From Hydractinia symbiolongicarpus (lineage: Eukaryota > Cnidaria > Hydrozoa > Anthoathecata > Hydractiniidae), in the NCBI RefSeq assembly GCF_029227915.1, contig NC_079885.1:10343001-10407000 (forward strand): a DNA stretch of 64,000 nt, in the 5' to 3' direction. The notes below the pieces were generated by a model. That model did not search any database and was not told where the DNA came from. It saw only the letters and a program-made list of their open reading frames with translations. Positions 16,170 to 39,702 of the stretch are shown here, piece by piece. How positions within the stretch are numbered: position 1 is the first letter of the stretch; each line of letters starts with the position of its first letter. Position numbers and translations under genes: made by a program.

Positions 16170-16173
16170 TTAA

Positions 16174-16193
16174 AGGGACTGTCCGGTGAAAAA
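16174..16193 (+). repeat. left terminal inverted repeat of Kolobok-like element
   Basis: AGGGACTGTCCGGTGAAAAA, directly after a TTAA. It matches the right end over 14 consecutive bases and then with one mismatch. Confidence 0.8.
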
Positions 16194-16546
16194 TTATTTT
16201 AAAATATTATTTGTAATTTAAAATCATGGCATAGAAAATACCTTTCTTTTTTGATATTATTCACTTAATCACATATATAAACAAACCTTTTTATCGTAGA
16301 TGTTGTTAAAGCATGGCTTCGTCTCGTTGCTGCAAATGCGCGCAAAACGGCCTGGGTTAAAAATTTAATATGCGTAATTATGCATGTGACGTAGAACAGT
16401 GGTAAAAAACAGACTATGTAGCGAAAGTGTGTAGCGTTTTCAGTACAAAATATGAACCCCCCTAGAAGTTAACTGTTTAGAAACTTATTTAAAAAAACTT
16501 TTAATTTTAAACTCTTCTCTACAAATTATGAAATACGATTATTAAT

Positions 16547-17320
16547 ATGTCTTCGTCGAACAAAAATTTCACGGTATTAGGATTTCAGTATGAACCAGAA
16601 AGATCAGATTCCGAAATAGCTTCACAGCCTAGGCGGGTTTTTAATGATGCTTTTGATGATCAGGCAGACTTCGATCCTCAGCAAAATCCTAGATTGTGTA
16701 AGCCTGTTACTGATTGGTGTCGTTGTGGTAAATGTGAGAGGATGCCGACAGAGAAAGAGTGTGTTTGCTGTGTTGAAATCGATGCCATAAAATACTTCAA
16801 TCTTAATGGTAGCGATTTATTTTTATATATTTCCAAAAATAATAAGGGGAGTTTATATTTCCAGACTTTTTTCTAACTTCATGATAATTATTTTAAGATC
16901 AGGAATGCATCACACAGCATCCACATTTTAACTACATCGTGTTGTTGAAAGATGTGTTATGGACAGCGTTAGTCGCGCTATATGACCAGGAAAGTCGCGG
17001 TTTACCTGAGCGTGACCATGTACCAAATAGGTAATCTATTTAATCTCTCCTGCGTTACTAAAAATTCGACGATTGACTTAACTTATTTTGCTAAAAATTT
17101 TAGGACGTACCGTTACGGTGCTTATCGACAGTTTTGCTGGTTTATCCACAACAAACTTGGGCGAGGTGTACGACGTGTCATACCAGCGTGTGCAGTTTGT
17201 AAGATCAGGGAGGAGTATCCTAGTGTAGATGGACGATACACTGGGTTTAAGGGTGACGCAGAAGGGGGAGAACTGGTTGAAATGGATTTCTCTTGGATAG
17301 CGGAGATAGAAGACGAATAG
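16547..17320 (+). CDS. P2X7 ballast-domain-like protein, transposon-borne, intact
   Basis: Three exons, 16547-16808, 16898-17030 and 17104-17320, join in phases 1 and 2 with GT/AG borders and give an uninterrupted 203-residue protein. The first 50 residues are acidic and polar. Residues about 51-80 hold a dense cysteine cluster (WCRCGKC...ERMPTE...ECVCC), followed in exon 2 by E-C-I-T and a helical L-rich segment. Exon 3 has YGAYRQ, VIPACAVCKIREEYPS and DGRYTGFK. This order matches the zinc-binding cytoplasmic ballast domain at the C-terminus of vertebrate P2X7 receptors. There is no receptor ectodomain or transmembrane helix, so it is a stand-alone soluble version. It lies convergent to the transposase within the same inverted repeats. 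Its function in transposition is unknown; DNA or RNA binding through the zinc cluster is only a guess. Confidence 0.85.
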
Positions 17321-17494
17321 TTATTATATACACTACTTGTACATATTTACAAAAGTCATACACATTTTTTTCGTATAAGAATTTGTTTTTTAAGAAACGT
17401 AGTAATAGATTTTTTTGTGCAAATTTAAGAAACGTTAGAAGAAGTATTCATCGGATTGCTTAAAAATTAAAAACGTGTATTAGAAATTTTATAT

Positions 17495-20400
17495 TTACAA
17501 TTTTATACGTTTATATTTGGTCGATTTTTCGATAATTTCTTCGCGAGGTGGCCTGTCATCGGGAGTAATCTTTAACGACAGTTGGCGTTTCATCCGATTT
17601 CTTTCGTAAACTTTTTTTTTACATTCGGCGCGTTTCATTATTTTTTGCAGGATATAGTGTAAGTAGCCATAATCCTTATCAACTTTCACAATTTTGGATA
17701 CAAATCTTTTGATCGGTTTGGAATACGCGACTTTGAAAAGTGGTTTCCGAATTCCTTCTTCGTTAACTCAGTGTTTCTAAAGATTATCAGAGCACATACA
17801 AAATATTGCATATTTAATATCAAAAACATAAAATTTGCAATGTTTTATATACCTGTTCTCTGTTGATGTTGTGGTTGTGATCTAAAATAGCGAGTTGGGT
17901 ACCAGCGAGCATCTTTTCCATTTTAAAAAAGGTTGACTTTGGCAAGTACCTAATTTTCAGTGAATGAAAAACTTCCAAGAGGGTAGTGTTGATTTGCTCC
18001 GTAAGCTTTTCAAGATCTTTTACAAGGCAAGGCTGTGTCACAATTTTAACCAATTTGTTGTGAGCTTGAGAACCCATCACAAGCCACTTTTTTCTTTCTG
18101 TCTCTTCCTCATTTAATCTTGGATGGTCGCAAGCTTTGTATGTCTTGTTGTGGGTAAAGGTATGTCTGTTGACAGAGTGGTGAATTATCGACGTAAATCT
18201 TTCAACTAACTCTTTTCCACTACCATTACAATTATGGATTGACCAGTACAGGTGGTTGACCACTGCAGGTGCCCAGCTTGCAAGTATGTTTAAGTCTATG
18301 AAGAAATAATTTAATAAAATCCGCACATTGAGATCTTAATCACTCTACAACAAAAGTAACATACCTTTCTTTTTTGAAGCCTTTATTAACTTTTTAACGA
18401 GTCCCCTTCCCAATGTGCCAAGGATCGAACTGATGAATAATTTTTGTAAATCTTGGGTCGGTCCTCATTAGCTTCTTTATGGAGGGATGCCTATCAGTGG
18501 AAATCACACGTATTGGAAGTTCCATGTCTTCTTGAAGTTCTTGGATACATCTGATAAAGCCTTCTTTTTCCATTGCTTGTGAGCTGGTTACCTCCTAAAT
18601 GTAAGAAGAAGTTAAAAGCCGATGAGATAGAAATATATATTTAGGAACACTCAAACGTAAAGAAATTTACCTTTACGTGTACTATGCTGAAATTTAATAT
18701 TTTGTTTGTCTGGCAGTCCATCGCCGATACGGTACTGTAGGTGGCGTTGTGACCAGGTGTATCACATTGACCGTCAACGGCAAGTTCTAGCTGCCGATTT
18801 TCATTTGTAATTTCACGTGACAGTATCTCTTTTTCTTTTCGCCAAGCATGATCTACCTCTGGGTAAACAAAGTTGCCACGATGCTCGTAGTACATGGTTT
18901 TGGAAATTAATTGCAAGTTTAATATGTTTGCAAATTTTAACATTTTGTTATATGTTATTCCAGCTAGGTCAATAGCAGCGGTTAAGTGTAAATTACCAGC
19001 TCCTTTGGTGCAATTTAGTTTCGGTTGACCAGACCAGTTGTAGTTACAACCTAAAATTCAACAATTAAATTAGAACCTAGGAGGGAGCTACAGGCTATTT
19101 TTCAGAATCGAACAATAAATGTTTTACTTAACCTTTTACACACTGTATCTTGTACGTTAGCCGACTGCCAGTATTCTTAACTTCGCTAATGCTTTCACTG
19201 TCTATGATGGAACCACACTTTATGCAATACTTAATCAGCTCTTTGATACATGTTTCGTACACCAAGTAAGTTTTTTGCTTGCATGGCTCCATGTTTCGAT
19301 GTTCAATACGTTCTTGTTCTTGTTCTTCGTCTTCTCCTTCATCCATCTCTTGACTAATTGAATAATTAGGGTCACTTTTATCAGCCCTGAAATAAGGAAT
19401 ATGCAAAAAATAGATTCATAAATACGACTTTATGGAAGTGGTTGGAAATTTATTTTTGTTTTGTTACCTCTCAAGAGATTTGACTAGCCATTCATCATCC
19501 TCACTCTCATTGTCGCCATCGGAAATTACGTCCTCGTCCAAATCGTGTCCCTCGTGTGAAAATTCAGAAGTTGGTGGTTCAATTAAATTCGACAATCCCA
19601 GCATTTCCAATGTGTTGCTTATATTACCTGAAGTATTAAATGAAGAAAAACGATATAAACAGTTTCTTCATTAATAATTTTTTCATTGTAAATTCGTGCA
19701 CGTATAAGAAAATATTTACCTTTGTGTAGGATATTAAATGTACTGTTCAGAGCTGCTGCTGCGCTTTGTAGGTTCACGTCATCCAAATCGGAATTAAATG
19801 AGGAATCAGTACAATTTGAATCTGAAAACATATACATTCTTAAAAATTACAAAATAATTTGCCACTTCGGTTAAGCATGAAAATAAAATAAAGTCGAAAG
19901 CCATACCGTTATCTGTGTCCGTTTCATTTTCAGTTTGACAAGAAGCATGTACAACAGCTACTTGGGTTTGCGTTTGCGCATCTGCTACAGAACACGACGT
20001 TTGTGTACATGTACTTCGTACTGACGTATTTTTATATTGGGTTGCACTCGTTTGTGTTTTTGGTATGGCCTGTATTCCAATTGATAATTTGGATTCAACT
20101 TCAAATTCAACTTCATTATCGATTAAACATAATTGCTCAGAATCTTCAACCAAGGCTGACTTCACCAACTAATAACGATCGAACGAAGTAATAAAAAGGA
20201 ATGGGAACGAAGATGATATACTCGAGAAATGTTAAGAAGATTCAAGGCTTTGTCAATACCAATAGCAAAATACGAGGAAATTAAGAATAATTTTCAAGAT
20301 TAACATTCTTATAAAAAAAACGGATTTGCTTACGTCTTTAGATTGACTTCGTTTGGCTCGCGATGTGGAGGATGTACGTTCCTTAGGGGCAGTCTTATGA

Positions 20401-20669
20401 CAAAAAATTGTCGGCACAGAATTTGGAATCAACCGCCGTTTGCAAGGACGATCTTTATAAAATAATTCATTCTGAAGTTTCCAGCTTGGGTCAAAGCAGG
20501 TTTCTTCAAAATGGTCAGAGCATAGAAATACTTTAGCTGGCAGCTTTGTTCTGTTAATTGCGGCAATCCAGGCTTTGCTAACTTCAGGATTCTTAGGCAT
20601 TAGAAAGAAGCTTTTATCTTTGTTTGACTTAATGTTGTTTTTACAACCGTACGCGGAACAGTAGGCCAT
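17495..20669 (-). pseudogene. THAP-domain Kolobok-type transposase, nine exons, one frameshift
   Basis: Exons read on the minus strand: 20334-20669, 19907-20168, 19720-19821, 19468-19627, 19133-19386, 18671-19050, 18365-18594, 17853-18295 and a last exon ending at the stop 17495-17497 (its start near 17770 is unresolved). Exon 1 is a THAP zinc finger (C4, C9, W34, C50, H53 and the closing VPTIF), a DNA-binding module. Exons 2-4 are disordered, with repeated TQT motifs and acidic tracts. Exons 5-8 are the catalytic region: LELAVDGQCD in exon 6, then in exon 7 RVISTDRHPSIKK and HQFDPWH, and in exon 8 WAPAVVNHLYWS, HH-x-x-N-x-H and LDHNHN, as in Kolobok-type transposases. Joining phases agree across exons 1-8 only if one base is removed from the C run at 18403-18406 (GGGG on the coding strand). 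As written the frame stops soon after. This is a dead copy or a homopolymer sequence error. Confidence 0.82.
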
Positions 20670-21218
20670 ACTAACAGCAAGTTTTTCGACCTTTCTCCGT
20701 TCAGAGTTGTTTCACAAAAAGAAACAAAAATGTTATTTAGTTTGCTTTCGAGGGGAAATTGCGTAATGTCGCGCTGAAGCGGCCTCTTTTACATTTTGAT
20801 CTTTAAATTTTATCTTCAGCGAAGCGCCTTTAGCGAATAATAACAGAACCTGTGAAATCTGATAAATTATTTATAACACATTTCCGAATATATGCTACAC
20901 GGGGGTATTAACTGACTTAAAAAATAATAAACGAAAATAAAATAAGTCAATAAGATTTTTTGTTCTGGTCTATCCTTTAACGGGCTAGCGCGTTTTGTTT
21001 TGATTTTCTCACCATTGTGCTACATCAGGGGAAACATGTGTGTTTAGCCTCTCATTCATGCTGAATTATTCAAACAAAATGGCGATCCAAAGGTGATGCT
21101 TCACGAGGGAATTGAAAAAAAGAAAACAACTTACATAAGCGTATAAATATATTATGTTTTAAAAGATGCAGATATTCTTTAGTAATAAGTACATATTAGT
21201 TGATATAATAAAACTTAT

Positions 21219-21238
21219 TTTTTTACCGGACAGTCCCT
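21219..21238 (-). repeat. right terminal inverted repeat of Kolobok-like element
   Basis: Reverse complement of the left repeat with one difference in 20 bases (A for G at position 15). No TTAA follows it. Confidence 0.8.
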
Positions 21239-21239
21239 A

Positions 21240-21470
21240 CTTTCAGCTCGCAATTGAGGCACGTAACAAACAGAAATATGTAGGAAATTAGGTAATTTTT
21301 TCTACTTTTTGCTAAGAAACTTAGGGATAAGAATCATTTATCGACCTCTTTAATTGAGTTTGACATAATTAGGAAATTCGGGATTTTGTGTTATTAACCG
21401 TATACAAAAGTGCCGCATATGTACCGAGTCCCTGGCAGATACTATGACTAGAATACACAGCAAATAGAAG
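21240..21470. other. short non-coding spacer
   Basis: Nothing recognised between the transposon end and the start of the first four-span unit. Confidence 0.4.
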
Positions 21471-21474
21471 AAAC

Positions 21475-22593
21475 GACAAGTATGCAAATCAATTTGAAGA
21501 AAGAGCTAAAAAACATACCATTGTGTAAAGTTAAAATTTTCTGCTGTGTATAACAAAGGAAGTTTCTATCATCACGTTAGTGATAGGAAACGAATATAAA
21601 ATTAAAGTGTATTTATATTTTGTCGATTATTAAAATTACAAACGCTCTTATATTGTGAAGCATAGTGTCGGTAAATCAGTTCAAAATTCTTTATGTTCTC
21701 CAAAAATAATCGCATTTTTTACAGCATAAAATATCTGGAATTTAAAGAATTTAACCGCATCTATTTTCGCGTACCTTAAACAAGCAGATGCTTGACATTT
21801 TAAGTCCTTTTTCTGAACAATGACAAACATTTTTAATTTTCTGGTATAAAATGATAAAAATTTCACTGTAATTGCCGATGCAACGTCAAATTTGTTTTAA
21901 GCCAATAGTCGGCACTCCAACGTCAGTACAATATAAATCTGTGGCAGGTTCAATATCAACGCAACAACAACAACATCTGTATTTGAAGTCGAAGAAGAAC
22001 AGAATTGAAGATAAAACCAGAAGCAAACATTGGATGAGGGTAAAAATAAAGTACACAACGAACAACCCATATTCTACTTTAAATGCAGATTCATCTATAT
22101 TATAGTAACTCACACTGAAAAGAATATCATCATAACCACGCGACACGCCAATTGATCCAAAAATACTTCGATATTCTCCTAAAAAGACACACAAAAAACA
22201 AATCCCAACAAACCACCATAGCATCATCCACAAGTCCAACCAGAACTTCACTTTGTAGTAACAACTTCTCTTCGTATGCTTACCAAATATACCAAGAATG
22301 GGATTTATCATAAGTAGGATATTCGTAATTACAGGTAAACCTGGCACTGCTTTTATAAACACACGTATGCTCTCCTGGTTGGCTCCAGGTATCCACAGGT
22401 ACAGCGCGCTAACGAATGCTGATAAAATACATAAACAAATTTGTATATAATTTAAATACACTTGATATTTTCCCATCTTTCATACATTTATGTTCTTTCA
22501 AGATTCTTGATAACTTTATTAAATGTAAATATGTAAATTTTCATTTATATAACCAAGCATGGATTCTAATTGTAGCAATCACGCCACTTTTTC
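21475..22593. repeat. tandem unit 0 (truncated, diverged)
   Basis: About 1.1 kb homologous to the first 1.1 kb of the two long units (24546 and 34600). It starts at GACAAGTATGCAAATC and loses similarity after CACGCCACTTTT at about 22593. It carries one four-span membrane gene and differs from the others by a few per cent. Confidence 0.85.
21886..22476 (-). CDS. four-span membrane protein, paralogue 1
   Basis: Single-exon frame of 196 residues. Hydrophobic segments lie at about 7-29, 46-65, 79-101 and 137-166, with short polar termini, so four membrane spans are likely. The last span is followed by a run of five cysteines (YRCCCCC), a likely palmitoylation site, and a roughly 25-residue cytosolic tail. 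The loop between spans 3 and 4 (about 104-135) differs most from the other two copies (GVSRGYDDILFSV here). No catalytic motif is present and the family is not recognised; a tetraspan or MARVEL-like architecture is possible, but the tetraspanin CCG motif is absent. The start ATG follows an AT-rich leader shared by all three copies. Confidence 0.7.
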   Translation of the reverse strand: MGKYQVYLNYIQICLCILSAFVSALYLWIPGANQESIRVFIKAVPGLPVITNILLMINPILGIFGKHTKRSCYYKVKFWLDLWMMLWWFVGICFLCVFLGEYRSIFGSIGVSRGYDDILFSVSYYNIDESAFKVEYGLFVVYFIFTLIQCLLLVLSSILFFFDFKYRCCCCCVDIEPATDLYCTDVGVPTIGLKQI

Positions 22594-22892: not shown

Positions 22893-24548
22893 ACTAGTCG
22901 ATAGCCCGTGGAAAAATCCAGGGGTGCGCCCATCCTTTTTATACCACTTAAGCTTACCCCAGTGTCGAAACGCCGGGGTAAGCCAAAGTCAAGGTGCGAT
23001 CTGACGTTTAACACTCTGTGGAGCTCTTAATAAGAGCCGTAAACTGTGCCACGCGATCAGGTGGAGCGCTTTAGTACAGGTATACAGTATTTCGTAAATT
23101 AAGTACACCATTATAGTCTTGCGACTGTAACATATTTTTCAAAAAATATTCCCTGCAACGATAGCTGAAATAAAAACACAGTTTACAAACAACAGTCGGG
23201 ACCCCATCATAGCAAAAACAATCAGTCAATATTATTTTAAATGTTTGTGAAAGGTTGTGAAAGGTAAAGAATTTATCGTGACACTGGGCTAAGCGCTTAC
23301 CACAGTTAAACCGTGTTGCACATGCATATAGGAATAATACGCCTTTGGAAAAAACTTCTCACAGACTCTGTTTAAAAAAACACAACAGGGCTGTGCGGTT
23401 AGTCCAGGTAAACATTGTTGCACATCCGTACAGGTGTGATTACCGAGAAAGTTTGAAAATGAATTGTCACATTGGGTTGACCCCTTAGTACAGGTAAACC
23501 ACGTTGTAAATGCGCATGGGCTTAACAGCCTTTACCAAAAACAACAGTCTGTTGTTAACACTGGGCTAACTGCTTAGTATAGTTAAACAGAGTTGAACAG
23601 GCGTATAGGCGTAATACCCCTTTCCAAAAAAACTTCATTGCAACTTCGGTTTTAATGAAAACACTGGGAACAGCTCATTACCGGTTCAGCTAAAATAATC
23701 TGTCAGTCATTTTATTTGCACAAAAAGTTTTCAGGAAAAAATAACTTAGCTAACTGCATTTATAGCATAACACTTATTGTTTAACAATATTGTTGTAGCC
23801 AAACTGCATTTTTATACTCTTACTTCTAGCCAAAGATAGGAGCTAGCTAAATGGCTACAGTCTCAACACAAAAATAAATGGTGGAATAAGTAAGGTTCTA
23901 GCTAGCTAGCTAGCCTCAATCTTCGTTTCCTAGCCAAAAATCCTAAAACTGGTGCGTTTAAGATCTGTACGTGACTAAAAACATGACAATATATTTATCT
24001 TAACATTTTAGAACATACAAAAAACCAATATTACGAAAATAAAAAGCTTATAGAAGACACAAAGGTGAAACAGACTTATAAACAGCACTGAACTGACCTT
24101 CTTCTAAAAACTAAAATGGCCATCATGTTTCTTCGTTGGCATGTCTAGGCCGCGAAAGTCTTGATTGGTTTTTCAAAGAATCAGGCGTTTTGATTGGTAA
24201 TCACGTGCGAGCGGTCAAAACAAAGTCAGTTAAACTGTCAGTAAAACCATCCTATTTGTTTTCGGTGGCTCCTGAGCGGAATCGGCGATAAAGGTCACGG
24301 CGGTAAATTATTATTAAAAAAGGCGCTTTTAAATAATGAATTTATTTTAATCACCTAATTTGTTTTTTAAATTAGAAGATTATCAATTAAATTAATTAAA
24401 TTATGTAAGGAAATAAATTAATTTTTTGGGTTTAGTTCAATTAATTATAAAGTTTTCTATTAAACAATCCCCTGTTTTCTAAAAATTCGCGGAAAGATCA
24501 AAGGAATATCGGTAACCCTTTTGAACAGACAGACAGACGACGGCTAGT
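22893..24548 (+). mobile_element. Helentron/HINE-like element with internal minisatellite
   Basis: The left end ACTAGTCGATAGCCCGTGG, with a degenerate CCCGTGG/CC(A/C)GGGG palindrome and TTTTTATACC, matches the reverse complement of the copy at 7338-7497. The right end is a CAGA microsatellite followed by CGACGGCTAGT, an imperfect inverted counterpart of ACTAGTCG. Between about 23060 and 23690 a unit of roughly 110 bases recurs four to five times in diverged form (TTAGTACAGGTAAACC, then CACATGC, then a TAATAC-CCTTT phrase, then ACACTGGGCTAA). No protein is encoded. Palindrome, microsatellite and central tandem repeats fit Helentron-associated elements. Confidence 0.55.
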
Positions 24549-24951
24549 ATGCAAATCAATTTTGAAAGAGCTAAAAAACATACCATTGTGTAAAGTTAAA
24601 ATTTTCTGCTGTGTATAACAAAGGAAGTTTCTATCATCACGTTAGTGATAGGAAACGAATAAAAAATTAAAGTGTATTTATATTTTGTCGATTATTAAAA
24701 TTACAAACGCTCTTACATTGTGAAGCATGGTGTCGGTAAATCAGTTCAAAATTCTTTATGTTCTCCAGAAATAATCGCATTTTTTACAGCATAAAGTATC
24801 TGGAATTTAAAGAATTTAACCGCATCTATTTTCGCGTACCTTAAACAAGCAGATGTTTAACATTTTAAGTCCTTCTTCTGAACAATGACAAACATTTTTA
24901 ATTTTCTGTTTTAAAAATGATAAAAATTTCACTGTAATTGCCGATGCAACG

Positions 24952-25542
24952 TCAAATTTGTTTTAAGCCAATAGTCGGCACTCCAACGTCAGTACAATAT
25001 AAATCTGTGGCAGGTTCAATATCAACGCAACAACAACAACATCTGTATTTGAAGTCGAAGAAGAACAGAATTGAAGATAAAACCAGAAGCAAACATTGGA
25101 TGAGGGTAAAAATAAAGTACACAACGAACAACCCATATTCTAATTTAAATGCAGATTCATCTATATTATAGTAACTCACATTGAAAAAAATATTATCATA
25201 ACCATAAAACTTGCCAATTGATCCAAAAATACTTCGATATTGTCCTAAAAAGACACACAAAAAATAAATCCCAACAAACCACCATAGCATCATCCACAAG
25301 TCCAACCAGAACTTCACTTTGTAGTAACAACTTCTCTTCGTATGCTCACCAAATATACCAAGAATTGGATTTATCATAAGTAGGATATTCGTAAATACAG
25401 GTAAACCTGGCACTGCTTTTATAAACACACGTATGCTCTCCTGGTTGGCTCCAGGTATCCACAGGTACAGCGCGCTAACGAATGCTGATAAAATACATAA
25501 ACAAACTTGTATGTAATTTAAATACACTTGATATTTTCCCAT
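24952..25542 (-). CDS. four-span membrane protein, paralogue 2
   Basis: 196-residue single-exon frame, nearly the same as the copy at 35005-35595 (about five residue changes) and about a dozen from the copy at 21886-22476. Topology and the C-terminal YRCCCCC cluster are conserved. The loop between spans 3 and 4 reads GKFYGYDNIFFNV at about residues 110-122. No stop, frameshift or lost start in any copy suggests the family is under purifying selection or very young. Function unknown. Confidence 0.7.
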   Translation of the reverse strand: MGKYQVYLNYIQVCLCILSAFVSALYLWIPGANQESIRVFIKAVPGLPVFTNILLMINPILGIFGEHTKRSCYYKVKFWLDLWMMLWWFVGIYFLCVFLGQYRSIFGSIGKFYGYDNIFFNVSYYNIDESAFKLEYGLFVVYFIFTLIQCLLLVLSSILFFFDFKYRCCCCCVDIEPATDLYCTDVGVPTIGLKQI

Positions 25543-25679
25543 CTTTCATACATTTATGTTCTTTCAAGATTCTTGATAACTTTATTAAATGTAAATATGT
25601 AAATTTTCATTTATATAACGAAGCATGGATTCTAATTGTAGCAATCACGCCACTTTTTTTATTAAAATAAAGTAGATGT

Positions 25680-27844
25680 CTCATATTACATTTCCGTGTT
25701 TGCATTGAATTATGGGATACCTTCTAAACTGTGACAATGGATATATAGGAAACCTCAAACTATTAATAATTGCGCCACTTAAGTAGACCTATTAACTCAA
25801 GAATACATTTTACTGTAAATTAATTTTACGTTTAAATTAAGAATGTGTAACAAACAGTACCACTTCATTAAACCAAATCTAAATAATGAAGTTGTATTAA
25901 AAAGATACCACTTTATAGTTCAGATTTGGTATAAATACACTACAAAGTCCTGGAAAGTCATACTAACTGTAACAAGATGCAGAAGCTGTATCTCGCTGCT
26001 AACAAGGTGAAGATTCACAATAGTTTATTATATTCTTTATTATACACCTGGGAAAACCAAAGTGGAGTATGCTACTTGGTCTATGACCACAAACCATGCT
26101 AAATTTTGAAGCCCATTAAATCACTCTGATTAATTGCTAAAAAGAACATTTTGGACCCAATGAAAACCTAAGATGTTTAGATGTAGTCACTAAGTTTGCG
26201 CTTATTTAAAGCAGCTTAATAGGGCGACCAGCGATATTTTTAGAAAAATTGTTTTTGCGGAACAGTAGTGTTTTTTATTTCTATTTTTGTAAACAATAGG
26301 CCTATTTTTCAACCTAATGTACCAGTAAACAAAGCAGATTCTTATAAACGCGTTATGCATTTTAACTACAAAAAATAAAGTGGCGGCGGCGGTTATCCGG
26401 ATGAGTGTTAGGGTTGCTAAAAAAGCAAATCGAGGAAAACAGGTGAGTAGGGAAGCTTTAAATGAAGTGAGAGTAGTGTAGACTTACACCCTTTTTTGTA
26501 AGAATATGTTTTATAAGAATACCAGACAGGGATTTTTGGTTAAACACAATGGGCCTATTGTTTAAACAACAGAAAAATAAAGAATAATGACCAACCTGGT
26601 AAAAATATTGATATTTTTATACATAAAGTATGTAATAGATTTTAAATTAAATATATACGGCGAGTTGATTTGCCTTATCTATGATTTACATTGGCTGGTA
26701 TAAAGATTGGAAGCTGAGAAATTTAAGGCTTTATTGCACCTAGTCAACGGCCTGGACGTTGTGTTCAGTATTTTGAAAAAAAAATAACACTTTGCACTCT
26801 TGAAGTTAATCCATATGCAAAAGAATTGTCCGCTGTCAGGAACCGCGAGCATTAACCAACGCGAACATAACATCATATCTATCTCAGTTAAGGTATACTT
26901 TTTTACAATTAGTTAAAAATATATACCTTTTACATAACCAAAGTAATGTTAATGTATACGTTTAAAAGCTTGTCACGGAAACTTTCACACCACAAGCAAT
27001 AACATTTATTAAATTGATACGTTTTAAAATATGTCCTGTACGTCAATGTTCATTGTCTTTTCGCTAGTCTGTCCAAATTATTGTTTCTGTTTTCTGCTTT
27101 TTTGCGAACAGGAATTTTACTGCATTTTAAGCATGCTGAGATGCGAATGCGTAACCGGACAGTACGCAGAATGCTTTCTAATCGCCTAGTTTTTGTTATA
27201 AAAAATTGCATGGCTTTTGCATCGTTTATGAATTCAGAGACGAAGAAAAACTCCGTGACTCTGTTAGCGTCTGAAGCGTTAATGTCCGTTTCATCAATAA
27301 GAAATTTGACATCAGTAAAGCTGGCATCAATATTATTGTGATTTTCTTGTTTTTCAGTTATCATCATTTTCATTCCCTAATGTTATTAAATGTCGTTGTG
27401 TACTAATTCGCTTTTCAAATATTTGCACTTCTTTTTTGTTTGCATCGACCTTTATATCTTCAGATGAATAACCCCTTCGACATGCAGATTGTCCTGTAGA
27501 TAACAGGACAATTTGCATGCATAAATTTATAACAATTTCGTCACGTGCTATCTTTTAGTCATCACTTCTCACATTAGTGGCACCTTTCCAACTATAACCC
27601 TGATAGCTTGCGCGCTTTGTATGTTTTTGTAACATATCAAGGAAGTAGTAACTCTTCCCAAAACTGTCTTTATTGAAAGAATTCTACTCTAGCTTCGTTA
27701 CAATGTTTTTTTACTGCTTCCTCCAAGTTTCGGCATCAACATGTTCGCTATCGCCAATACCACTGATTGCGTATTGATAGGATTTGTTGGATTTCAGGCT
27801 CTGTCGGCTCCAATGGGTCACAAACAATATCCGGAAACGCATTT
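25680..27844. other. non-coding stretch of unit 1
   Basis: Contains a 107-codon minus-strand frame (27050-27373) overlapped by an 86-codon plus-strand frame, with no domain or splice context, so not called a gene. The same sequence recurs 10053 bases downstream. Confidence 0.4.
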
Positions 27845-29047
27845 CAGGCCTCGTCAGGAATGGCGTGCGATCGCACGCGCACACGCCCACACACGCCATG
27901 TTTGAATGTTCCTGTGCGATCTTCGCACGCCAAAAAAAAACACTTAATACCTCAGGCGTGCGCTAATCGCACACCAAAATAAATAATGTTCTCTTCAATG
28001 AAGGCGCACAGGAATAATATACATTGCCGATCGCGAGTAAAGCTACACATCTTTGAGAGTACGAATACAAATAAATGCAAGTAAAATAATTCAGAGTGAG
28101 AGTACAATGCGAGTGCGAGTAAAATAAATAAGAGTAATCAATAATTAAACTACTCGCAAGTAAATATTAAAAAAATATATGTTACTCGCGAGTTATATTA
28201 AAGAAAAACATAGACATTAATTTTAAATACACTATTTAATTTTTTTTTAATTTAGTTGCTCTTTTGAAATTAATAAATAAATTTTAAAGTTCAACTTTTC
28301 CGTCTTTTACAGTTCAACTTTTCCGTCTTTTTTTCCGTCTTGTTCTTTCGCAGAAATCACTTCAAGCATGTTCTTTCGCAAGCACAGAGTCAGCATGATA
28401 TCTAATTATAGTTATGGTGATCAATTGCCACATGCAGACTTTGCTTTCTGAATATATTTCAACAAACATTGCTTTACAACTCAGACAACAATCTGTATAG
28501 TTTTAAAACATCGCCATAGAAACAGGACGTCACAAAGCTTGTTATTGTTTTGTTTAGGGAGGAATGTTTTAAGATCGAAGCAACAATAATAACGTGAGGG
28601 ATTTTTTTATAAAGAAACAGTTTAATGTTTAATGATATATTTTTTTTGAAAAATATAAAAATAAAAAATATTTACCTCTAAAAAAATATTTACAAAAAAG
28701 TTATTAACTGAAAGAGTTTTATGACTGTAACTTGCATGTTTTATAATTTTTCTTCGTTCTGTTGCTACGTCGTATACTTTTTTTTTCAAAAATAATGAAT
28801 AATGAACGCATCGCACATTTTAGTTTCGTCCCAACAAATTACCTGCTTTTCAAAACATGGCAAAATTAGTGTTGCCGTATGCGAGTTCTATGATTATTCG
28901 AAAAAAAAAAATGGAACAAAAATGAGCACACGCCATCGCACGCCATTGAAAATTATGCCGTGAGAACAACGCACGCCTCAAAATTATTAAGAAGTATCAT
29001 GACGTGCGAAGCTCGCACGCCAGCATTTTTCTTCCTGACGAGGCCTG
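27845..29047. mobile_element. non-autonomous DNA element with GCGTGCG sub-terminal boxes, unit 1 copy
   Basis: The ends CAGGCCTCGTCAGGAA and (reverse complement of right end) CAGGCCTCGTCAGGAA are perfect 16-base inverted repeats. They are flanked by CATTT on both sides (GCATTT if the last base of the element is read as flank). Inside each end are many short boxes GGCGTGCGA / TCGCACGCC. The middle is AT-rich with ACTCGC/GCGAGT boxes. No transposase is present. CAGG ends and clustered sub-terminal boxes suggest a hAT-like element, but the expected 8-bp duplication is not clear. Length is 1203 bp. Confidence 0.7.
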
Positions 29048-29399
29048 CATTTAAATGGGTATAAAATCAGAAAAGTTAAGAAAGATTTTAAATTAAACAT
29101 TTCAAAGCCACCTCACACCTAGTGCTTAAATCATTCTATGACCACAAGCAAAAACAAAAGTCTACTGTCAAAAAACTTTGGGATCGAGTAGGGATAACCA
29201 ACTTTATAAAGCTGAAGATCCTTTATTGCAATTGGAAATCGTCGGTAATTAATTAATTTATGATAAAGTAGAAAACAGAAGGGATTATGTAATCCTCTCT
29301 CTTTCAATACCCTTTTCTACGTTTAATTAATTGTGTTTATTATTACTGATATTGAACTTATTTACCCAGGAAAGCCTCTTCACTTTCTTTTGAATACTG

Positions 29400-29640
29400 C
29401 TATTAACGAGTGTCCTGCGAAGGGGGGTGTCACAGTGCTCTCATTTGAGGGGAAAAATTCGTGCAAACACATCAATCCCTCAACTAGACAACCGCCTGAG
29501 ATATCAATCCTGTTCTTATGATGAGCGCTAAGCAAAAAGGATAGATTCGCACTTTTATAATCTCTGGCATGACTAGCCGGGGTTTGAATCCAAGACATCC
29601 TGCACTGAAAGTAAATGCTCTACTACAAAGGGATTTAACC
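29400..29640 (-). mobile_element. tRNA-derived SINE-like sequence, unit 1 copy
   Basis: On the minus strand an A-box-like GTAGTAGAGCA (complement about 29614-29628) is followed by a B-box-like GGATTCAAACC (complement of 29581-29591) at tRNA-like spacing. A body of about 150 bases with GCTTAGCGCTCATCAT follows. No cloverleaf complete enough for a functional tRNA is seen. Confidence 0.45.
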
Positions 29641-29649
29641 CAAACCTGA

Positions 29650-30911
29650 CCTAAAATAAGTTCTGTGCAAGTTTCAATACACTTAAGATAAGTTTTCTCT
29701 AGCATAATAGCCGTATTTTGTCTGTTGGCCAATACCAGGTCGTAATTATATGTCCAGGAAAAGCGTTTAAATATTATGTATGGTGTCCGTGTTTCTTAAT
29801 TTGACTAATTGGGATAAAATAACAGACACTAAAAAATCCCAATCAAACATTAAGATTTTAGGACAAATAACATTTTGTTCAGGCACACACATAAAAAATG
29901 TAATAGTATAATATCATATATAGAACATAATAATATTAAAAAAATCTGGACAACGGTTGCCATAATGGCAGAGCTTTAATATTTTAAAATCAAATTATTA
30001 GTTTGAAAAATTTAAAGGCATAATCTATAAAATCTGATAAACAAACTACTAAATCTAACAAAATCTATAGATATATGCATCAGTAAATGTTAATGATAGC
30101 AAGTTTTTCTGCAACTGCAAGCCAAAACACCTTGTGGTTTACTGGTTGTAACATATGAGAAGGACTTTTCCTTTAATCATTTACAAGTACGTCCTTTATT
30201 TTTCCAGTTAGGATCTCCATCAAATTTGTCCTTTTTTAACTTAAAATATATAATTGATCAAATACGTAATCTAAAAATGCAATTATAGTTCAAGAAATAA
30301 CCAGTGACATGCTGGTAAAACAGACAAATATCATTTGTGAACAACTACTGTAAAAATGCGTACGTACTATAAATCGTCAATCTTATACTCCATTGTACGC
30401 TTTGCTTTCGACTTACCCCTTTTCTGAGGGTACAGATAACTCCTCGAAAAATCAACTTAAAATTTTTTTGCAGAAGAGATGCATAAAAACACTTCAATAA
30501 TTTTCTAAGGCGTAGATATGGACGCCCTTTGAAGATCCCCTTCCCCTTGTACACTTTGATACGCTTTTAGACTACCTCTCCGCCTTCTTTTTCTTTGAGC
30601 ATGCTAGCTACATTACTTTTTGTGAAGCATATCAGTGAGTAAGTTTTTTAACTAACATTCATCTTATCAGCTATTTCACTCACCGAAAAACTCTTTTAAT
30701 ATCTCTACATTACTATTATTATAATCGAGTTATTTTTAACAAGGTCAATTTTAGTTAATTTTTTTTAGATGTTAATCTAATTTACATTGTCTATCAAAAC
30801 AGATTGTACAAACTTTAGTCTGCTTGTAAAATCTGTTGCAGAGTAAAGTGGACGTATTGCAAAATAATTGTTTGTTAGATAACTGTAAATTCACGAAACG
30901 TGCATCCGAGA
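29650..30911. other. upstream region of the transporter gene
   Basis: AT-rich, with no gene recognised. It presumably includes the promoter and 5' leader of the transporter that starts at 30912. Confidence 0.4.
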
Positions 30912-32261
30912 ATGGCAGAACCAACGCATGAAAAATGGCTAGGTCAACGAAGAAAGACTGTCTTTGTCATCAACATGATCACATTTCTAGCTGGCTTGGA
31001 TTACAACATCATTATGTCCACTTTTGTCTTCTACCTTAAAGATTTAGTAAAAACAGATCGTCCACACTTATGCTATGCCATCTTGCTAGGCGTTTTCTCC
31101 GTCAGTGCAACTTTAACAGGAGGGTTTGGCGGTCGCTATGTTGATCGAACTAGAAATTTAAAAATATATACCAACGCAGTGCTAGCGTTAATTTTAATTG
31201 GTAATCTTTTATATTCTGTTTACCTTCATCCAGCATTTTTGATTATTGGACGGTTGCTTGCAGGTGTGGGAGATCCATTTATGAGTGTATGTGCCGGAGA
31301 ATTAGTTCGCCTATATAGTAGAGAAGAAGCAACAAGTGCGATTTGGGTTATGACGACAGCATATGCCATGGGGTTTACTGTTGGTCCTGCTTTTGGAATT
31401 ATATTTAAAGGAGTTAATTTCAAAATAGGATCGTTTATTGTTACCTACTTGAATTTCATTGGAATATTTGTTGCAGGGGTGACATTCGTTACACTTGTAA
31501 TGTCAAATATGCTTTTACCTAACAAACTTCTTGAACTAAAGGATTTAGTAAAAAATATGCCAGAGAAAAGTAGCAAAATAGCAAACTGTGATACTGATAA
31601 AAAGGGTCTCACAAGAGATGAGATAGTAGCTCCAAAAGAAAATAATAATCATGTAGAAACTTTGCCAACCAAACAGGTTTTCTCAAACTGCATTGCTATG
31701 TACAGCAGCTTTAGCTTGGATATGTTGTTTCCACTTCTAGTCGATGATATACTAAAATGGAGTCAGTTTGCTTTAAGCGCCATGCTTGTCACAAGCTCAG
31801 TTTCTTACTTTTTCATATTATGCACGTTGGTTAAGATCTGTACTACTGATAAACGAACATACTACACAATTATTTTTTGTTTATGTTGTATGTTAATCAA
31901 TTTCAGCGTGATATTCGAACTGAAGGTATTAGCACGCGATGTTAGAAGAGATATAATTTTAATGGTGGGATTTGTTATAGCATACACGCTTGTTTGGCTA
32001 CCAATACAGGTCCTTTTGAAAAGCATGGTAGCAAAATTAATTCCGCCAAAGATTCAAAGTTTTTCACAAGGCTTGATCGCAGGTATAATGAGACTTGCCA
32101 TGATAATTCCTGCATTTACCACTCCACTTTTAATGCCTTGGATACATATTTGGGCTCTCACGTTGTTTGTTATTGTTACCATCAATATAATGGTATTCAT
32201 TATGAGAAGAAAATCGTTGGCAAACATTAGAGTTATTTCTGTAAATAATAATAAATTATAA
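30912..32261 (+). CDS. major facilitator superfamily transporter, copy 1
   Basis: Intronless frame. The first ATG is at 30912 (upstream codons open with GTG and are not used), giving 449 residues. About twelve hydrophobic segments fall in two halves separated by a polar loop (about residues 205-260, rich in K, E and N). Between segments 2 and 3 the motif GGFGGRYVDRTRN is the family's signature loop (G-x-x-x-D-R-x-x). Segment 4 has IIGRLLAGVGDP and segment 5 AMGFTVGPAFG, as in proton-coupled carriers. The layout and GRLLAG..P..GPAFG pattern are closest to MFSD8/CLN7-like lysosomal members, but the substrate cannot be inferred. It likely sits in a cell or organelle membrane. It is identical over its length to the copy at 40965-42314. 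Lack of introns could indicate a retrocopy. Confidence 0.85.
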   Translation: MAEPTHEKWLGQRRKTVFVINMITFLAGLDYNIIMSTFVFYLKDLVKTDRPHLCYAILLGVFSVSATLTGGFGGRYVDRTRNLKIYTNAVLALILIGNLLYSVYLHPAFLIIGRLLAGVGDPFMSVCAGELVRLYSREEATSAIWVMTTAYAMGFTVGPAFGIIFKGVNFKIGSFIVTYLNFIGIFVAGVTFVTLVMSNMLLPNKLLELKDLVKNMPEKSSKIANCDTDKKGLTRDEIVAPKENNNHVETLPTKQVFSNCIAMYSSFSLDMLFPLLVDDILKWSQFALSAMLVTSSVSYFFILCTLVKICTTDKRTYYTIIFCLCCMLINFSVIFELKVLARDVRRDIILMVGFVIAYTLVWLPIQVLLKSMVAKLIPPKIQSFSQGLIAGIMRLAMIIPAFTTPLLMPWIHIWALTLFVIVTINIMVFIMRRKSLANIRVISVNNNKL

Positions 32262-33858
32262 TCTTAATAGGAACTTGTCAATTACATTTTAATGTTTTTC
32301 TCGGTGAACAATGGCGTAGGGAAACTAAGGACGTTCATAAACTCTGAAATTAGAAAGCATATCTTCAGTCACAAAGAAATTATTATCCAATTCTATAATA
32401 TTTCTCGCGTCCTCTCCACCATCCGCCATCATAAAAAACGGCGAAAGAAAAAACAAACGAGATTTGGCGCTAAGAAAATCGTGCACCGCGGTCATATAAT
32501 TATGCGAAAATAACAAAGGAAAACGGCTAATAATATAATTTAGGCGCGAGATATCAAACTTTTTGTTTACAGAATTCGATCAAGGCAAAATATAGCAATC
32601 TTTATGTGTTTCAATAGAAATTGCTTTCCTTCGGAAAACGCTTTTTTTATAAAATTTCTATCTGCTTTTAGTAAGTAACAACTTATAAACGACTTGTTTA
32701 AAGCAATGTAATAAAAAAGAACTGGGACTTAAAGAAAACGTTATCACAAAAAGGAACTTGGATGCATTTTAAATTTTATAACAGGTTGGCTCTGTCTCAG
32801 CTGGGCTATTTTTCGACTCTGTAATTAAGGGGCGAGAAAGTGGTCTGAAATAGTGTCAAATTTTCTAACTCAGTCTCAAGTTCCTCAATTACTAGAGTTT
32901 ATCAGCTCATATTTGGGACGAAAAGTCGAGTCAAAAAAGTTGAGTCAAAAATCCCTTCATAATTGCAAAAAAAAATTTTCATAACTAAGAATATTCTAGT
33001 ATAAGTTTTTTTTTTTAATTCTTGGGTCGCGTTTAAACTTTTTTTTGTGCGAAATGATAAAAAAATAATTCTACAAGCGTGAATAAACAGCCTAGCGTGA
33101 GGCACCCTTTTTTATACAAGAACGTTTTACAACTCACGAGGTTCAAATCCTACAAAAAACGAAAGGACTTATAAACAACATTTCAGCCTGAAATGGGCTA
33201 ATAAAAAAAAGAGTCATGTAAGAAAGTCATGTAAGTTTCATATGGCAAGCTTGATTTCAATTGGCGCGAAAACCAAACGGAGAGATAAACTCGTGACTTT
33301 AAAGTTATCAAGTAAACAGTCAACACGCAACAAGTTAACAACACTTGAGCCTAAAAGAAAGGGAAGCTGAGGTAGTTTCGATAAATATTTTGTGTTGCTT
33401 ATAAATATAAGCGTGCATTCATAATATACTGAGATTTCTATGTTTTTAAAGGTTTGTGGAAGTTTAAATTAGAAACATGCAAACAGAAGCGCGTTTATTC
33501 TTTCATCGCAGATATTATCTTGAGATCACATGACCCTAATGGGCTTCCTTACCTTTTTGTGTCACATAACATAAATAAGGTTTCAACTGTTTTAACTGCA
33601 TCTTTTCAACCTCGTTCCCAGCGCCTGTTGTCTCTTTTTATATCCTGAGGCGAGACTAAGATGACCTTGGAGGGGGCCTCGTCACGTGACCCTTAAATGC
33701 ATAGTTTTTCTGGATGTAATATTTAATGAGATTTGTCCCAATGTATCAAAGTTTTTTATATGACCTTAACCTTGCAGAGCTCGGCGTTTTTTGTCACAAT
33801 GCGTCTGTATCAAAAAAGCATTCTTAATTCATAGCATTTTTCTTCCATTTTGCAGTTA
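32262..33858. other. non-coding stretch after the transporter
   Basis: AT-rich, with small overlapping open frames (32292-32513 plus, 32325-32516 minus) without domain. A B-box-like GGTTCAAATCC at about 33142 hints at an old tRNA-derived repeat. Confidence 0.35.
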
Positions 33859-34597
33859 CAGTTGAACTCATGTAATTCGAACTCCTATAATTCGAAAACT
33901 CACTTAATTCGAACAGATTCTGTGGCCCTCTCAGAATTTACCTTGAAAACCTTACAAGAAAACTCCTATAATTCGAACCCATGTAATTCGAAAAATCATG
34001 TAAATCGAACAGATTTTCCGGTCCCATCAAGAAATTTTAATCATGTAATTCGAATTTTCGAATTTTTTGAGTTTTTGAAGCTTACCAACTCGATAATTTG
34101 CAATCGAATGTTTTTTTTTTACATTCGATCGGAGCTCGTCCACTGCTTTTGGCTTCCATTTCTTATCAAGACAAGATGGGGAAAAGAAAGCATAAAGAAC
34201 TCACTTTAAAAACAAAATATGAAGCTCTCCGTGACTTGGAGGATGGTATGTCCAATAAAGACGCATCCATCAAGTACTCCGTTCCAAGCAGCACCTTGTC
34301 AACATGGAAGAACAATAAAGAGAAGATATTCCTTGCTTTCAAAAACTCGTCACTAAAACGTCAGAGAGTTAAGACTGACAAGTACGAAAAATTGAATGAA
34401 TCGTTGTTGACTTGGTTTACCTCAATGCGTGGTAACAACATCCCAATTAATGGACCAATTTTAATCGAGAAAGCTCGTGAATTTGCGACAGCATTCAACT
34501 ATGAAGATTTTTCAGCATCGAACGGATGGTTGAGAGGCTGGAAGGAGAGGTAATATACTTACTCTATTATGTTCCAACAGGGTTTATTCTAATATGA
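33859..34597 (+). mobile_element. pogo/Tigger transposon, left part only (unit 1)
   Basis: Starts with the terminal repeat CAGTTGAACTCATGTAATTC after a TA, followed by several TGTAATTCGAA boxes. Exon 1 of the transposase (ATG at 34176 to donor at 34549) is complete. The element then stops at 34597 within intron 1, where unit 2 begins. There are no catalytic exons or right end. Confidence 0.88.
34176..34549 (+). pseudogene. pogo transposase exon 1, truncated gene copy
   Basis: Encodes the MGKRKHKELTLKTKYEAL helix-turn-helix start (CENP-B N-terminal type, with SNKDASIKYSVPSSTLSTWK as recognition helix region). The second DNA-binding domain follows (ESLLTWFTSMRGNNIPINGP...EKAREFA...ASNGWLRGWKER). 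It is identical to exon 1 of the complete copy at 44228. With no downstream catalytic exons it could give only a DNA-binding fragment. Confidence 0.85.
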
Positions 34598-35004
34598 CAA
34601 GTATGCAAATCAATTTGAAAGAGCTAAAAAACATACCATTGTGTAAAGTTAAAATTTTCTGCTGTGTATAACAAAGGAAGTTTCTATCATCACGTTAGTG
34701 ATAGAAAACGAATAAAAAATTAAAGTGTATTTATACTTTGTCGATTATTAAAATTACAAACGCTCTTATATTGTGAAGCATGGTGTCGGTAAATCAGTTC
34801 AAAATTCTTTATGTTCTCCAGAAATAATCGCATTTTTTACAGCATAAAATATCTGGAATTTAAAGAATTTAACCGCATCTATTTTCGCGTACCTTAAACA
34901 AGCAGATGCTTGACATTTTAAGTCCTTCTTCTGAACAATGACAAACATTTTTAATTTTCTGTTTTAAAAATGATAAAAATTTCACTGTAATTGCCGATGC
35001 AACG

Positions 35005-35595
35005 TCAAATTTGTTTTAAGCCAATAGTCGGCACTCCAACGTCAGTACAATATAAATCTGTGGCAGGTTCAATATCAACGCAACAACAACAACATCTGTA
35101 TTTGAAGTCGAAGAAGAACAGAATTGAAGATAAAACCAGAAGCAAACATTGGATGAGGGTAAAAATAAAGTACACAACGAACAACCCATATTCTAATTTA
35201 AATGCAGATTCATCTATATTATAGTAACTCACATTGAAAAAAATATTATCATAACCATGAAACTTGCCAATTGATCCAAAAATACTTCGATATTGTCCTA
35301 AAAAGACACACAAATAACAAATCCCAACAAACCACCATAGCATCATCCACAAGTCCAACCAGAACTTTACTTTGTAGTAACAACTTCTCTTCGTATGCTC
35401 ACCAAATATACCAAGAATTGGATTTATCATAAGTAGGATATTCGTAAATACAGGTAAACCTGGCACTGCTTTTATAATCACACGTATGCTCTCCTGGTTG
35501 GCTCCAGGTATCCACAGGTACAGCGCGCTAACGAATGCTGATAAAATACATAAATAAACTTGTATATAATTTAAATACACTTGATATTTTCCCAT
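35005..35595 (-). CDS. four-span membrane protein, paralogue 3
   Basis: 196 residues, same architecture as the copies at 21886 and 24952: four membrane spans, C-terminal YRCCCCC cluster and cytosolic tail. Differences from paralogue 2 include Y for C near residue 14, I for F near 40, a CY pair in span 3, and H for Y in the loop between spans 3 and 4. Function unknown. Confidence 0.7.
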   Translation of the reverse strand: MGKYQVYLNYIQVYLCILSAFVSALYLWIPGANQESIRVIIKAVPGLPVFTNILLMINPILGIFGEHTKRSCYYKVKFWLDLWMMLWWFVGICYLCVFLGQYRSIFGSIGKFHGYDNIFFNVSYYNIDESAFKLEYGLFVVYFIFTLIQCLLLVLSSILFFFDFKYRCCCCCVDIEPATDLYCTDVGVPTIGLKQI

Positions 35596-35732
35596 CTTTC
35601 ATACATTTATGTTCTTTCAAGATTCTTGATAACTTTATTAAATGTAAATATGTAAATTTTCATTTATATAACGAAGCATGGATTCTAATTGTAGCAATCA
35701 CGCCACTTTTTTTATTAAAATAAAGTAGATGT

Positions 35733-37897
35733 CTCATATTACGTTTCCGTGTTTGCATTGAATTATGGGATACCTTCTAAACTGTGACAATGGATATATA
35801 GGAAACCTCAAACTATTAATAATTGCGCCACTTAAGTAGACCTATTAACTCAAGAATACATTTTACTGTAAATTAATTTTACGTTTAAATTAAGAATGTG
35901 TAACAAACAGTACCACTTCATTAAACCAAATCTAAATAATGAAGTTGTATTAAAAAGATACCACTTTATAGTTCAGATTTGGTATAAATACACTACAAAG
36001 TCCTGGAAAGTCATACTACCTGTAACAAGATGCAGAAGCTGTATCTCGCTGCTAACAAGGTGAAGATTCACAATAGTTTATTATATTCTTTATTATACAC
36101 CTGGGAAAACCAAAGTGGAGTATGCTACTTGGTCTATGACCACAAACCATGCTAAATTTTGAAGCCCATTAAATCACTCTGATTAATTGCTAAAAAGAAC
36201 ATTTTGGACCCAATGAAAACCTAAGATGTTTAGATGTAGTCACTAAGTTTGCGCTTATTTAAAGCAGCTTAATAGGGCGACCAGCGATATTTTTAGAAAA
36301 ATTGTTTTTGCGGAACAGTAGTGTTTTTTATTTCTATTTTTGTAAACAATAGGCCTATTTTTCAACCTAATGTACCAGTAAACAAAGCAGATTCTTATAA
36401 ACGCGTTATGCATTTTAACTACAAAAAATAAAGTGGCGGCGGCGGTTATCCGGATGAGTGTTAGGGTTGCTAAAAAAGCAAATCGAGGAAAACAGGTGAG
36501 TAGGGAAGCTTTAAATGAAGTGAGAGTAGTGTAGACTTACACCCTTTTTTGTAAGAATATGTTTTATAAGAATACCAGACAGGGATTTTTGGTTAAACAC
36601 AATGGGCCTATTGTTTAAACAACAGAAAAATAAAGAATAATGACCAACCTGGTAAAAATATTGATATTTTTATACATAAAGTATGTAATAGATTTTAAAT
36701 TAAATATATACGGCGAGTTGATTTGCCTTATCTATGATTTACATTGGCTGGTATAAAGATTGGAAGCTGAGAAATTTAAGGCTTTATTGCACCTAGTCAA
36801 CGGCCTGGACGTTGTGTTCAGTATTTTGAAAAAAAAATAACACTTTGCACTCTTGAAGTTAATCCATATGCAAAAGAATTGTCCGCTGTCAGGAACCGCG
36901 AGCATTAACCAACGCGAACATAACATCATATCTATCTCAGTTAAGGTATACTTTTTTACAATTAGTTAAAAATATATACCTTTTACATAACCAAAGTAAT
37001 GTTAATGTATACGTTTAAAAGCTTGTCACGGAAACTTTCACACCACAAGCAATAACATTTATTAAATTGATACGTTTTAAAATATGTCCTGTACGTCAAT
37101 GTTCATTGTCTTTTCGCTAGTCTGTCCAAATTATTGTTTCTGTTTTCTGCTTTTTTGCGAACAGGAATTTTACTGCATTTTAAGCATGCTGAGATGCGAA
37201 TGCGTAACCGGACAGTACGCAGAATGCTTTCTAATCGCCTAGTTTTTGTTATAAAAAATTGCATGGCTTTTGCATCGTTTATGAATTCAGAGACGAAGAA
37301 AAACTCCGTGACTCTGTTAGCGTCTGAAGCGTTAATGTCCGTTTCATCAATAAGAAATTTGACATCAGTAAAGCTGGCATCAATATTATTGTGATTTTCT
37401 TGTTTTTCAGTTATCATCATTTTCATTCCCTAATGTTATTAAATGTCGTTGTGTACTAATTCGCTTTTCAAATATTTGCACTTCTTTTTTGTTTGCATCG
37501 ACCTTTATATCTTCAGATGAATAACCCCTTCGACATGCAGATTGTCCTGTAGATAACAGGACAATTTGCATGCATAAATTTATAACAATTTCGTCACGTG
37601 CTATCTTTTAGTCATCACTTCTCACATTAGTGGCACCTTTCCAACTATAACCCTGATAGCTTGCGCGCTTTGTATGTTTTTGTAACATATCAAGGAAGTA
37701 GTAACTCTTCCCAAAACTGTCTTTATTGAAAGAATTCTACTCTAGCTTCGTTACAATGTTTTTTTACTGCTTCCTCCAAGTTTCGGCATCAACATGTTCG
37801 CTATCGCCAATACCACTGATTGCGTATTGATAGGATTTGTTGGATTTCAGGCTCTGTCGGCTCCAATGGGTCACAAACAATATCCGGAAACGCATTT
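35733..37897. other. non-coding stretch of unit 2
   Basis: Counterpart of 25680-27844, with two single-base differences near its start and otherwise the same by eye. No gene called. Confidence 0.4.
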
Positions 37898-39693: not shown

Positions 39694-39702
39694 CAAACCT
39701 GA

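Follow-up and report, generated by a model that had tools for sequence, protein, structure and literature searches.

The stretch of DNA considered here, called the window below, comprises 64,000 nucleotides (64 kb) of contig NC_079885.1 from the hydrozoan Hydractinia symbiolongicarpus, and positions are counted from its first letter. At 16174-21238 it holds a 5,065-bp DNA transposon whose inverted ends enclose two convergent spliced genes: on the plus strand, a gene for a protein resembling the cytoplasmic "ballast" domain of the P2X7 receptor, and on the minus strand, a gene for a transposase. A first-pass annotation, made from the letters alone, had proposed that the element is a transposon of THAP and Kolobok type and that a stand-alone P2X7-ballast gene sits between its ends. 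The ends, the exon models, the match to the Pfam family P2RX7_C, and the THAP domain described below all support that proposal. The DNA has a G+C content of 31 to 36%, and the introns of both genes are short, features that suit an invertebrate animal, as do the other mobile elements nearby.

The ballast gene begins 373 bp from the left end of the element and lies wholly inside the inverted ends. It has three exons joined by GT..AG introns. Exon 1 (16547..16808, plus strand) carries the cysteine clusters WCRCGKC and CVCC, exon 2 (16898..17030, plus strand) carries the cysteine of ECIT, and exon 3 (17104..17320, plus strand) carries the VIPACAVCKIREEYPSVDGRYTGFK block and ends in a stop codon at 17318-17320. 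Spliced together, they encode 203 amino acids. The first-pass annotation had suggested that this product be searched with a hidden Markov model of the P2X7 C-terminal domain, and the outcome is positive: P2RX7_C matches residues 39-181 with E=2e-20 and 74 bits (cut-off 23.5), and the match crosses both exon joins. P2RX7_C is the only family that a Pfam scan of the protein reports at E<=0.1, the P2X channel domain not being found. A search of the Protein Data Bank (PDB), also at E<=0.1, returns four P2X7 sequences and nothing else, the best being 6u9v (E=3.6e-9, residues 53-182), which we take to be rat P2X7. In a pairwise alignment, C58, C60, C63, C74, C75, C91, and C161 pair with cysteines of the rat protein. 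The gene had been described as a clean, stand-alone ballast gene with a cysteine cluster; with seven cysteines aligned and neither an internal stop nor a receptor part found, the description holds. The references for these comparisons were P2X7 and the Pfam model, in place of sequences of KolX, as the transposon-encoded ballast protein is named (see below).

Does the protein also keep the guanine-nucleotide site of the receptor? Five residues are named for this site in rat P2X7, R546, H547, R574, R578, and K583 (PMC7016195), and A567 and L569 are named as GDP contacts (PMC9859053). Two of the five are identical in the Hydractinia protein (R546 is R135 and R578 is R167), while the other three are changed (H547 to Y136, R574 to V163, and K583 to S172), and the alignment places R156 and I158 at the GDP-contact positions A567 and L569. 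With two of five site residues kept, the ballast protein is not classed as nucleotide binding. The residue numbering of the rat stretch agrees at nine of ten named positions; W559 landed on V, so that residue name may follow another species' numbering. Compared with the P2X7 ballast, then, the protein shares the homologous domain, the cysteine clusters, the VIPAC..KIR..YP....YTGFK block, and R546 and R578; it differs in that no P2X channel part is found with it and in the substitutions at H547, R574, K583, and A567. It also resembles nanor and the stand-alone ballast proteins (PTHR36981) treated by Rump et al. in 2020, which are likewise short, have the conserved cysteines, and keep R546 and R578 alone of the five, the only two said to be retained in animals beyond the deuterostomes (PMC7016195). 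The difference is one of setting: in that account they are host genes, with transposons going unmentioned (the string "transpos" has no occurrence in the main text), whereas here the gene lies within transposon ends.

The transposase gene, on the minus strand, begins at 20669, and its stop codon ends at 17495; open frame and GT-AG sites were the only guides to the nine-exon model. Exon 1 (20334..20669) encodes the THAP zinc finger and a PNSVPTIF box (20426-20403), the counterpart of the AVPTIF-type box of Kolobok transposases. Exons 2 (19907..20168), 3 (19720..19821), 4 (19468..19627), and 5 (19133..19386) follow. Exon 6 (18671..19050) contains VDGQCDTPGH (18778-18749), with the proposed first acidic residue. 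Exon 7 (18365..18594) contains STDRH (18501-18487) and FDPWHIGKG (18429-18403), the latter including a DxxH motif. Exon 8 (17853..18295) contains HHSVNRH...ACDH (18182-18123) and LLEVFHSLKIRYLPK (17981-17937), with the proposed last acidic residue, and exon 9 (17495..17776) supplies the C terminus and the stop. With GT..AG introns modelled on both strands, the earlier view of two convergent spliced genes between the ends is upheld. The THAP domain (PF05485) is matched at residues 4-89 with E=6.3e-15 and 56.2 bits (cut-off 23.9), and the solved domains of THAP1 and THAP2 match the protein at 1.2e-7 to 7.2e-7 in the PDB search.

Downstream of the THAP finger, the motifs follow one another in the order VDGQCDTPGH, STDRH, FDPWHIGKG, HHSVNRH..ACDH, and finally LLEVFHSLKIRYLPK, with LLEVFHSL as the proposed last acidic motif. 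The first D and last E of the DDE triad are presumably those in the first and last of these. The C/DxxH motif (FDPWH) sits between the second and third proposed catalytic residues. A putative H2CH-type zinc-finger set, HHSVNRHTFTHNKTYKACDH (18182-18123), lies between DxxH and the proposed last acidic residue. The THAP finger and the Kolobok-type motifs, DxxH and the H2CH set in order, are therefore both present in the second gene, as the first-pass annotation had it.

One defect is apparent. In exon 7 (18594-18365), among the proposed catalytic residues, the frame is lost near 18403, just where FDPWHIGKG ends. Without a change of frame, translation adds TR and then meets a stop, reaching neither the zinc-finger set nor the last acidic residue; past the break, the transposase sequence carries on in another frame. 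Barring an assembly error, the gene as read cannot yield a whole transposase, and with the frame broken this copy is probably not autonomous. Could the break be an error of assembly or sequencing, in an element that is in fact autonomous? It is the only break in the model, it is located at short G and A runs, and motif-bearing frames continue on both sides of it, all of which would suit an error; the missing TTAA at the right end (see below) suggests, on the other side, that the copy is not pristine. We regard an error as possible, if clearly the less probable account. A broken transposase beside an intact ballast frame is also what would be expected if a decaying relic were retaining its ballast gene for some use by the host, an ongoing domestication comparable to that of zebrafish nanor, which has been proposed to be a domesticated KolX (PMC9587614). 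A single frame break could equally well come from recent decay or a sequencing error, however, and over their first 20 bases the inverted ends remain almost the same, so that domestication at this locus seems improbable.

The first-pass annotation had spoken of matched 20-base inverted ends. The left terminal inverted repeat (16174..16207, plus strand), which holds the palindrome GGACTGTCC, and the right one (21205..21238, minus strand) do form a true inverted pair: compared end to end, their first 14 bases are identical. Over 20 bases there is one mismatch (19/20), so the claim stands for the pair and its 14 exact bases and falls one base short of its full length. The sequence AGGGACTGTCCGG, with two or fewer mismatches allowed, has just two sites in the 64 kb, 16174-16186 on the plus strand and 21226-21238 on the minus strand; the mean in shuffled sequences was 0.16 sites, and two sites were reached in 0 of 100 shuffles. 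The palindrome GGACNGTCC occurs at both transposon ends (16176-16184 and 21228-21236) and at no further site in the window. As a guess, it might be a binding core for the transposase or for KolX. Exact inverted 14-mers spaced 2 to 10 kb apart number 34 in the window against a mean of 10.7 in 20 Markov sequences, a count that is not by itself striking, the DNA being AT-rich. Those rich in G+C (at least 8 G+C) are scarcer: the window has five, at three places, of which the element ends are one, and none appeared over 20 runs of the Markov sequences. An inverted 14-mer linking the right flank at 21259 to 13321 was dropped as a candidate in view of the same chance mean of 10.7.

What lies immediately outside the ends? 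On the left, 16170..16173 (no strand assigned) is TTAA, the tetranucleotide of the type that Kolobok elements target. With a TTAA beginning at 1.1% of all window positions, the match is suggestive and no proof. The termini themselves, AG at 16174 and CT at 21238, have the 5'-RR...YY-3' form of Kolobok. The right flank (21239-21242) reads ACTT, and this copy thus lacks a complete target-site duplication. It may be, although this is a guess, that the right side of the element has been rearranged, given the 1.1-kb repeat that begins some 235 bases away and the 10-kb tandem duplication beyond it (both described below). That repeat was considered as an empty site and rejected, because the copies begin to match one another only some 235 bases beyond the right end of the element (21473/21475).

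The flanks also bear on whether the element could belong to the P superfamily, that of the P element and THAP9, and not to Kolobok. A THAP finger is present, and THAP and C/DxxH are common to P and Kolobok. For a P-type element, an 8-bp target duplication is expected (PMC7776569), whereas the flanks here, GACCTTAA on the left and ACTTTCAG on the right, agree at only two of eight positions. The AG..CT ends, the left TTAA, the HHCH set, and the KolX gene all favor Kolobok, and neither the P element nor THAP9 is known to come with a ballast gene. The P element and THAP9 differ further in having a GTP-binding insertion domain (PMC7776569). Membership in the P superfamily is accordingly highly improbable.

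How, then, should the element be filed? Kojima and Bao described in 2022 a Kolobok lineage, Kol0, whose elements encode two proteins, a DDE transposase and KolX, and they found KolX to have the fold of the P2X7 cytoplasmic ballast, with clear similarity to residues 476-595 of the receptor, the part with two zinc ions and seven cysteines (PMC9587614). Among the signatures of Kolobok named in the same paper are 5'-RR/YY-3' ends, a C/DxxH motif, and, between that motif and the last acidic residue, a zinc finger. With Kolobok-1_XT taken as representative of Kol0, the Hydractinia element is alike in its transposase (DxxH and the zinc-finger set ahead of the last acidic residue), its stand-alone seven-cysteine ballast protein, its 5'-RR...YY-3' ends, and its TTAA target, seen here on the left; it differs in lacking the right TTAA and in its broken transposase frame. 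For a THAP finger in Kolobok, the source is a different paper. The T2/Kolobok elements of Xenopus (XKol and T2-MITE) are described as starting with AGGRR, targeting TTAA, and having THAP, DDE, and H2CH as their three motifs (PMC6004289). An AG/AGG start, a TTAA target, THAP with the AVPTIF-type box, DDE, and H2CH are points of likeness to the present element, which at 5.1 kb is shorter than the ten full-length Xenopus elements tabulated there (6.8 to 13.9 kb); the name KolX has no occurrence in that paper. One of the ten, Tr11, has an altered right site, ATAA (PMC6004289). Judged from its sequence, the stretch would best be filed as another Kol0 Kolobok, one copy with the transposase and KolX pair, a reading to which we give a probability of roughly 0.88.

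Several observations weigh against this assignment. It rests on a single copy, and the right flank is ACTT in place of TTAA. The catalytic part of the transposase has no Pfam match at E<=0.1 (the scan took in exon 8 and the 562 residues that precede the break, but not exon 9), and PDB chains at E<=0.01 match the 562 residues in the THAP region only; the superfamily call thus rests on motifs, ends, and flank and not on a tree. THAP itself has no occurrence in the main text of PMC9587614. The ballast protein, although its seven cysteines all align, departs in letters or spacing from the three cysteine-cluster patterns of Rump et al., which were written for P2X7 (PMC7016195): for the first, PxWCxCx2C, there is no P at the stated spacing ahead of WCRCGKC; for the second, LCCRx3GxCITTS/T, the stretch from CC to CIT is longer; and for the third, (LIV)PSC(C/S)x3IRx2(F/Y)Px5Y(S/T)G, IPACA has A at two places, the remainder agreeing. 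Finally, experimental support for KolX as a helper in transposition was not found in the literature searched.

Might the ballast gene instead be a host gene, trapped by a THAP transposon as passive cargo within its ends or lying next to where the element happened to land? Across invertebrates, sponge, molluscs, arthropods, and echinoderms among them, Rump et al. report ballast genes linked to two shared markers, which they read as the ancestral configuration (PMC7016195), and the intact ballast frame alongside a broken transposase frame also suits a host gene. Against this, the gene is entirely within the inverted ends, close to the left one, and convergent with the transposase, and Kol0 elements of diverse animals have been described with this very pair of genes (PMC9587614). 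A trapped host gene is therefore very unlikely at this locus, and the pairing of transposase and KolX in a Kol0 element remains the preferred reading.

The wider idea is not ours. In substance, the hypothesis of the first-pass annotation is that of Kojima and Bao, who published both the notion that stand-alone ballast genes are often transposon cargo and the notion that the receptor domain derives from such an element. In their account, ballast proteins of diverse animals had not earlier been recognized as parts of Kolobok; the KolX-bearing lineage occurs in vertebrates, annelids, cnidarians, and sponges; P2X7 arose when a P2X4-like gene fused with KolX; and nanor is likely a domesticated KolX (PMC9587614). 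In the literature searched, the name KolX was found in that paper only, as was the combination of P2X7, ballast, and transposon. In looser searches, no other title or abstract start among the matches listed makes the KolX-P2X7 claim. With the KolX-Kolobok pairing in print since 2022, the present example would be new at most as a copy. That a transposon accessory protein was the source of a domain in an immune ion channel is a sound idea, and this copy offers one clear example with both genes within definite ends.

The direction from transposon to receptor is nevertheless not beyond dispute, given the two-marker linkage. Rump et al. documented ballast proteins that stand alone in a range of animals, and they suggested capture by a P2X4-like gene (PMC7016195). 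Their two-marker association favors a host locus, and the transposon reading leaves it unexplained. The two marker genes could themselves be transposon genes. The same paper mentions two Ixodes proteins with a C-terminal ballast, one of them with a domain printed as TAHP (PMC7016195). If TAHP stands for THAP, these fusions would fit misjoined transposon genes. A study of Clytia notes a coral protein named P2X7 that lacks the P2X7 C-terminal domain (PMC10620158), which is in keeping with a late fusion.

What might KolX do for the transposon? By analogy with the family, the transposase would bind the transposon ends through its THAP finger and would move the element to TTAA sites by cut and paste. 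KolX may act in the same reaction, as a small zinc-stabilized helper whose binding partner would be the transposase or the DNA ends. In favor of a helper role is the recurrence of the second gene with one transposon lineage across vertebrates, annelids, cnidarians, and sponges; between such a role and a regulatory or host-directed one, we put the odds at about even. With KolX intact and the transposase broken, the copy described here would move only if another copy supplied the transposase. Why would a transposon carry a ballast protein at all? One speculation concerns the P transposase, which needs GTP for end pairing and active-site placement and has been called unique among transposases in this regard (PMC7776569). 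KolX might bring guanine nucleotide, or the shell of a nucleotide site, to the ends in trans, a task that in the P element transposase, likewise a THAP transposase, falls to a GTP-binding insertion domain within the one protein. The retention of R135 and R167 is compatible with this idea; the A567 contact being R weakens it, and with three of the five named site residues lost, it is a long shot. If it were true, the P2X7 ballast would owe its nucleotide to a past role in transposition. More generally, learning what KolX does would help to interpret the zinc and GDP/GTP sites in the P2X7 ballast, to which no function is yet assigned according to PMC9859053.

Relatives were also sought among viral and prokaryotic sequences. 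Against viral contigs, the ballast protein gave three pattern matches, the alignment of ballast and rat sequences 55, and the transposase core five, none of them a relative. A degenerate IPAC..IR pattern picked out 10 viral contigs (best tblastn E=0.25), the element end sequence found none, and a tblastn search of phages found nothing. Against prokaryotic genome contigs, the ballast alignment gave 48 pattern matches and the transposase 10, again with no relatives. The collections being viral and prokaryotic, absence from them tells little about an animal transposon. Within the window, scans found no RNA family at gathering scores and no tRNA. Scans for bacterial-type promoters (25 sites against 17.4, standard deviation [SD] 4.4, in shuffles) and terminators (three against 3.1, SD 1.7) were set aside as not meaningful for this DNA.

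The remainder of the window is rich in repeats. A stretch of 1.1 kb occurs three times (21475-22592, 24540-25658, and 34596-35711), the first copy, which begins about 235 bases beyond the right end of the transposon, being about 97% identical to the other two. Each copy has a 197-residue frame resembling a membrane protein; the one scanned has no Pfam match. A tandem duplication of about 10,052 bp spans 24546-34597 and 34600-44649 at 99.8% identity and could be recent or an assembly artifact. Each of its copies contains a 460-residue open frame (30879-32261 and 40932-42314), and the one scanned resembles a major facilitator superfamily transporter.

Other mobile elements lie farther along. A Tc5/pogo-type element is found at 34071-34553 and 44150-46439, with CENP-B_N and HTH_Tnp_Tc5 domains at 34071-34553 and pieces of DDE_1 at 44863-45282 and 45720-46439; its 5' part is present in both copies of the tandem duplication. 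Two retrotransposons of the long interspersed nuclear element type follow in opposite orientation, at 47743-50437 (minus strand) and 51609-53982 (plus strand), the coding parts of both scattered over several frames. In the frames scanned, which are a part of the whole, the first has reverse transcriptase and endonuclease domains and the second a reverse transcriptase. Last, an open frame at 58284-58724 (minus strand) encodes a partial kinesin motor domain (PF00225, E=5.4e-16).

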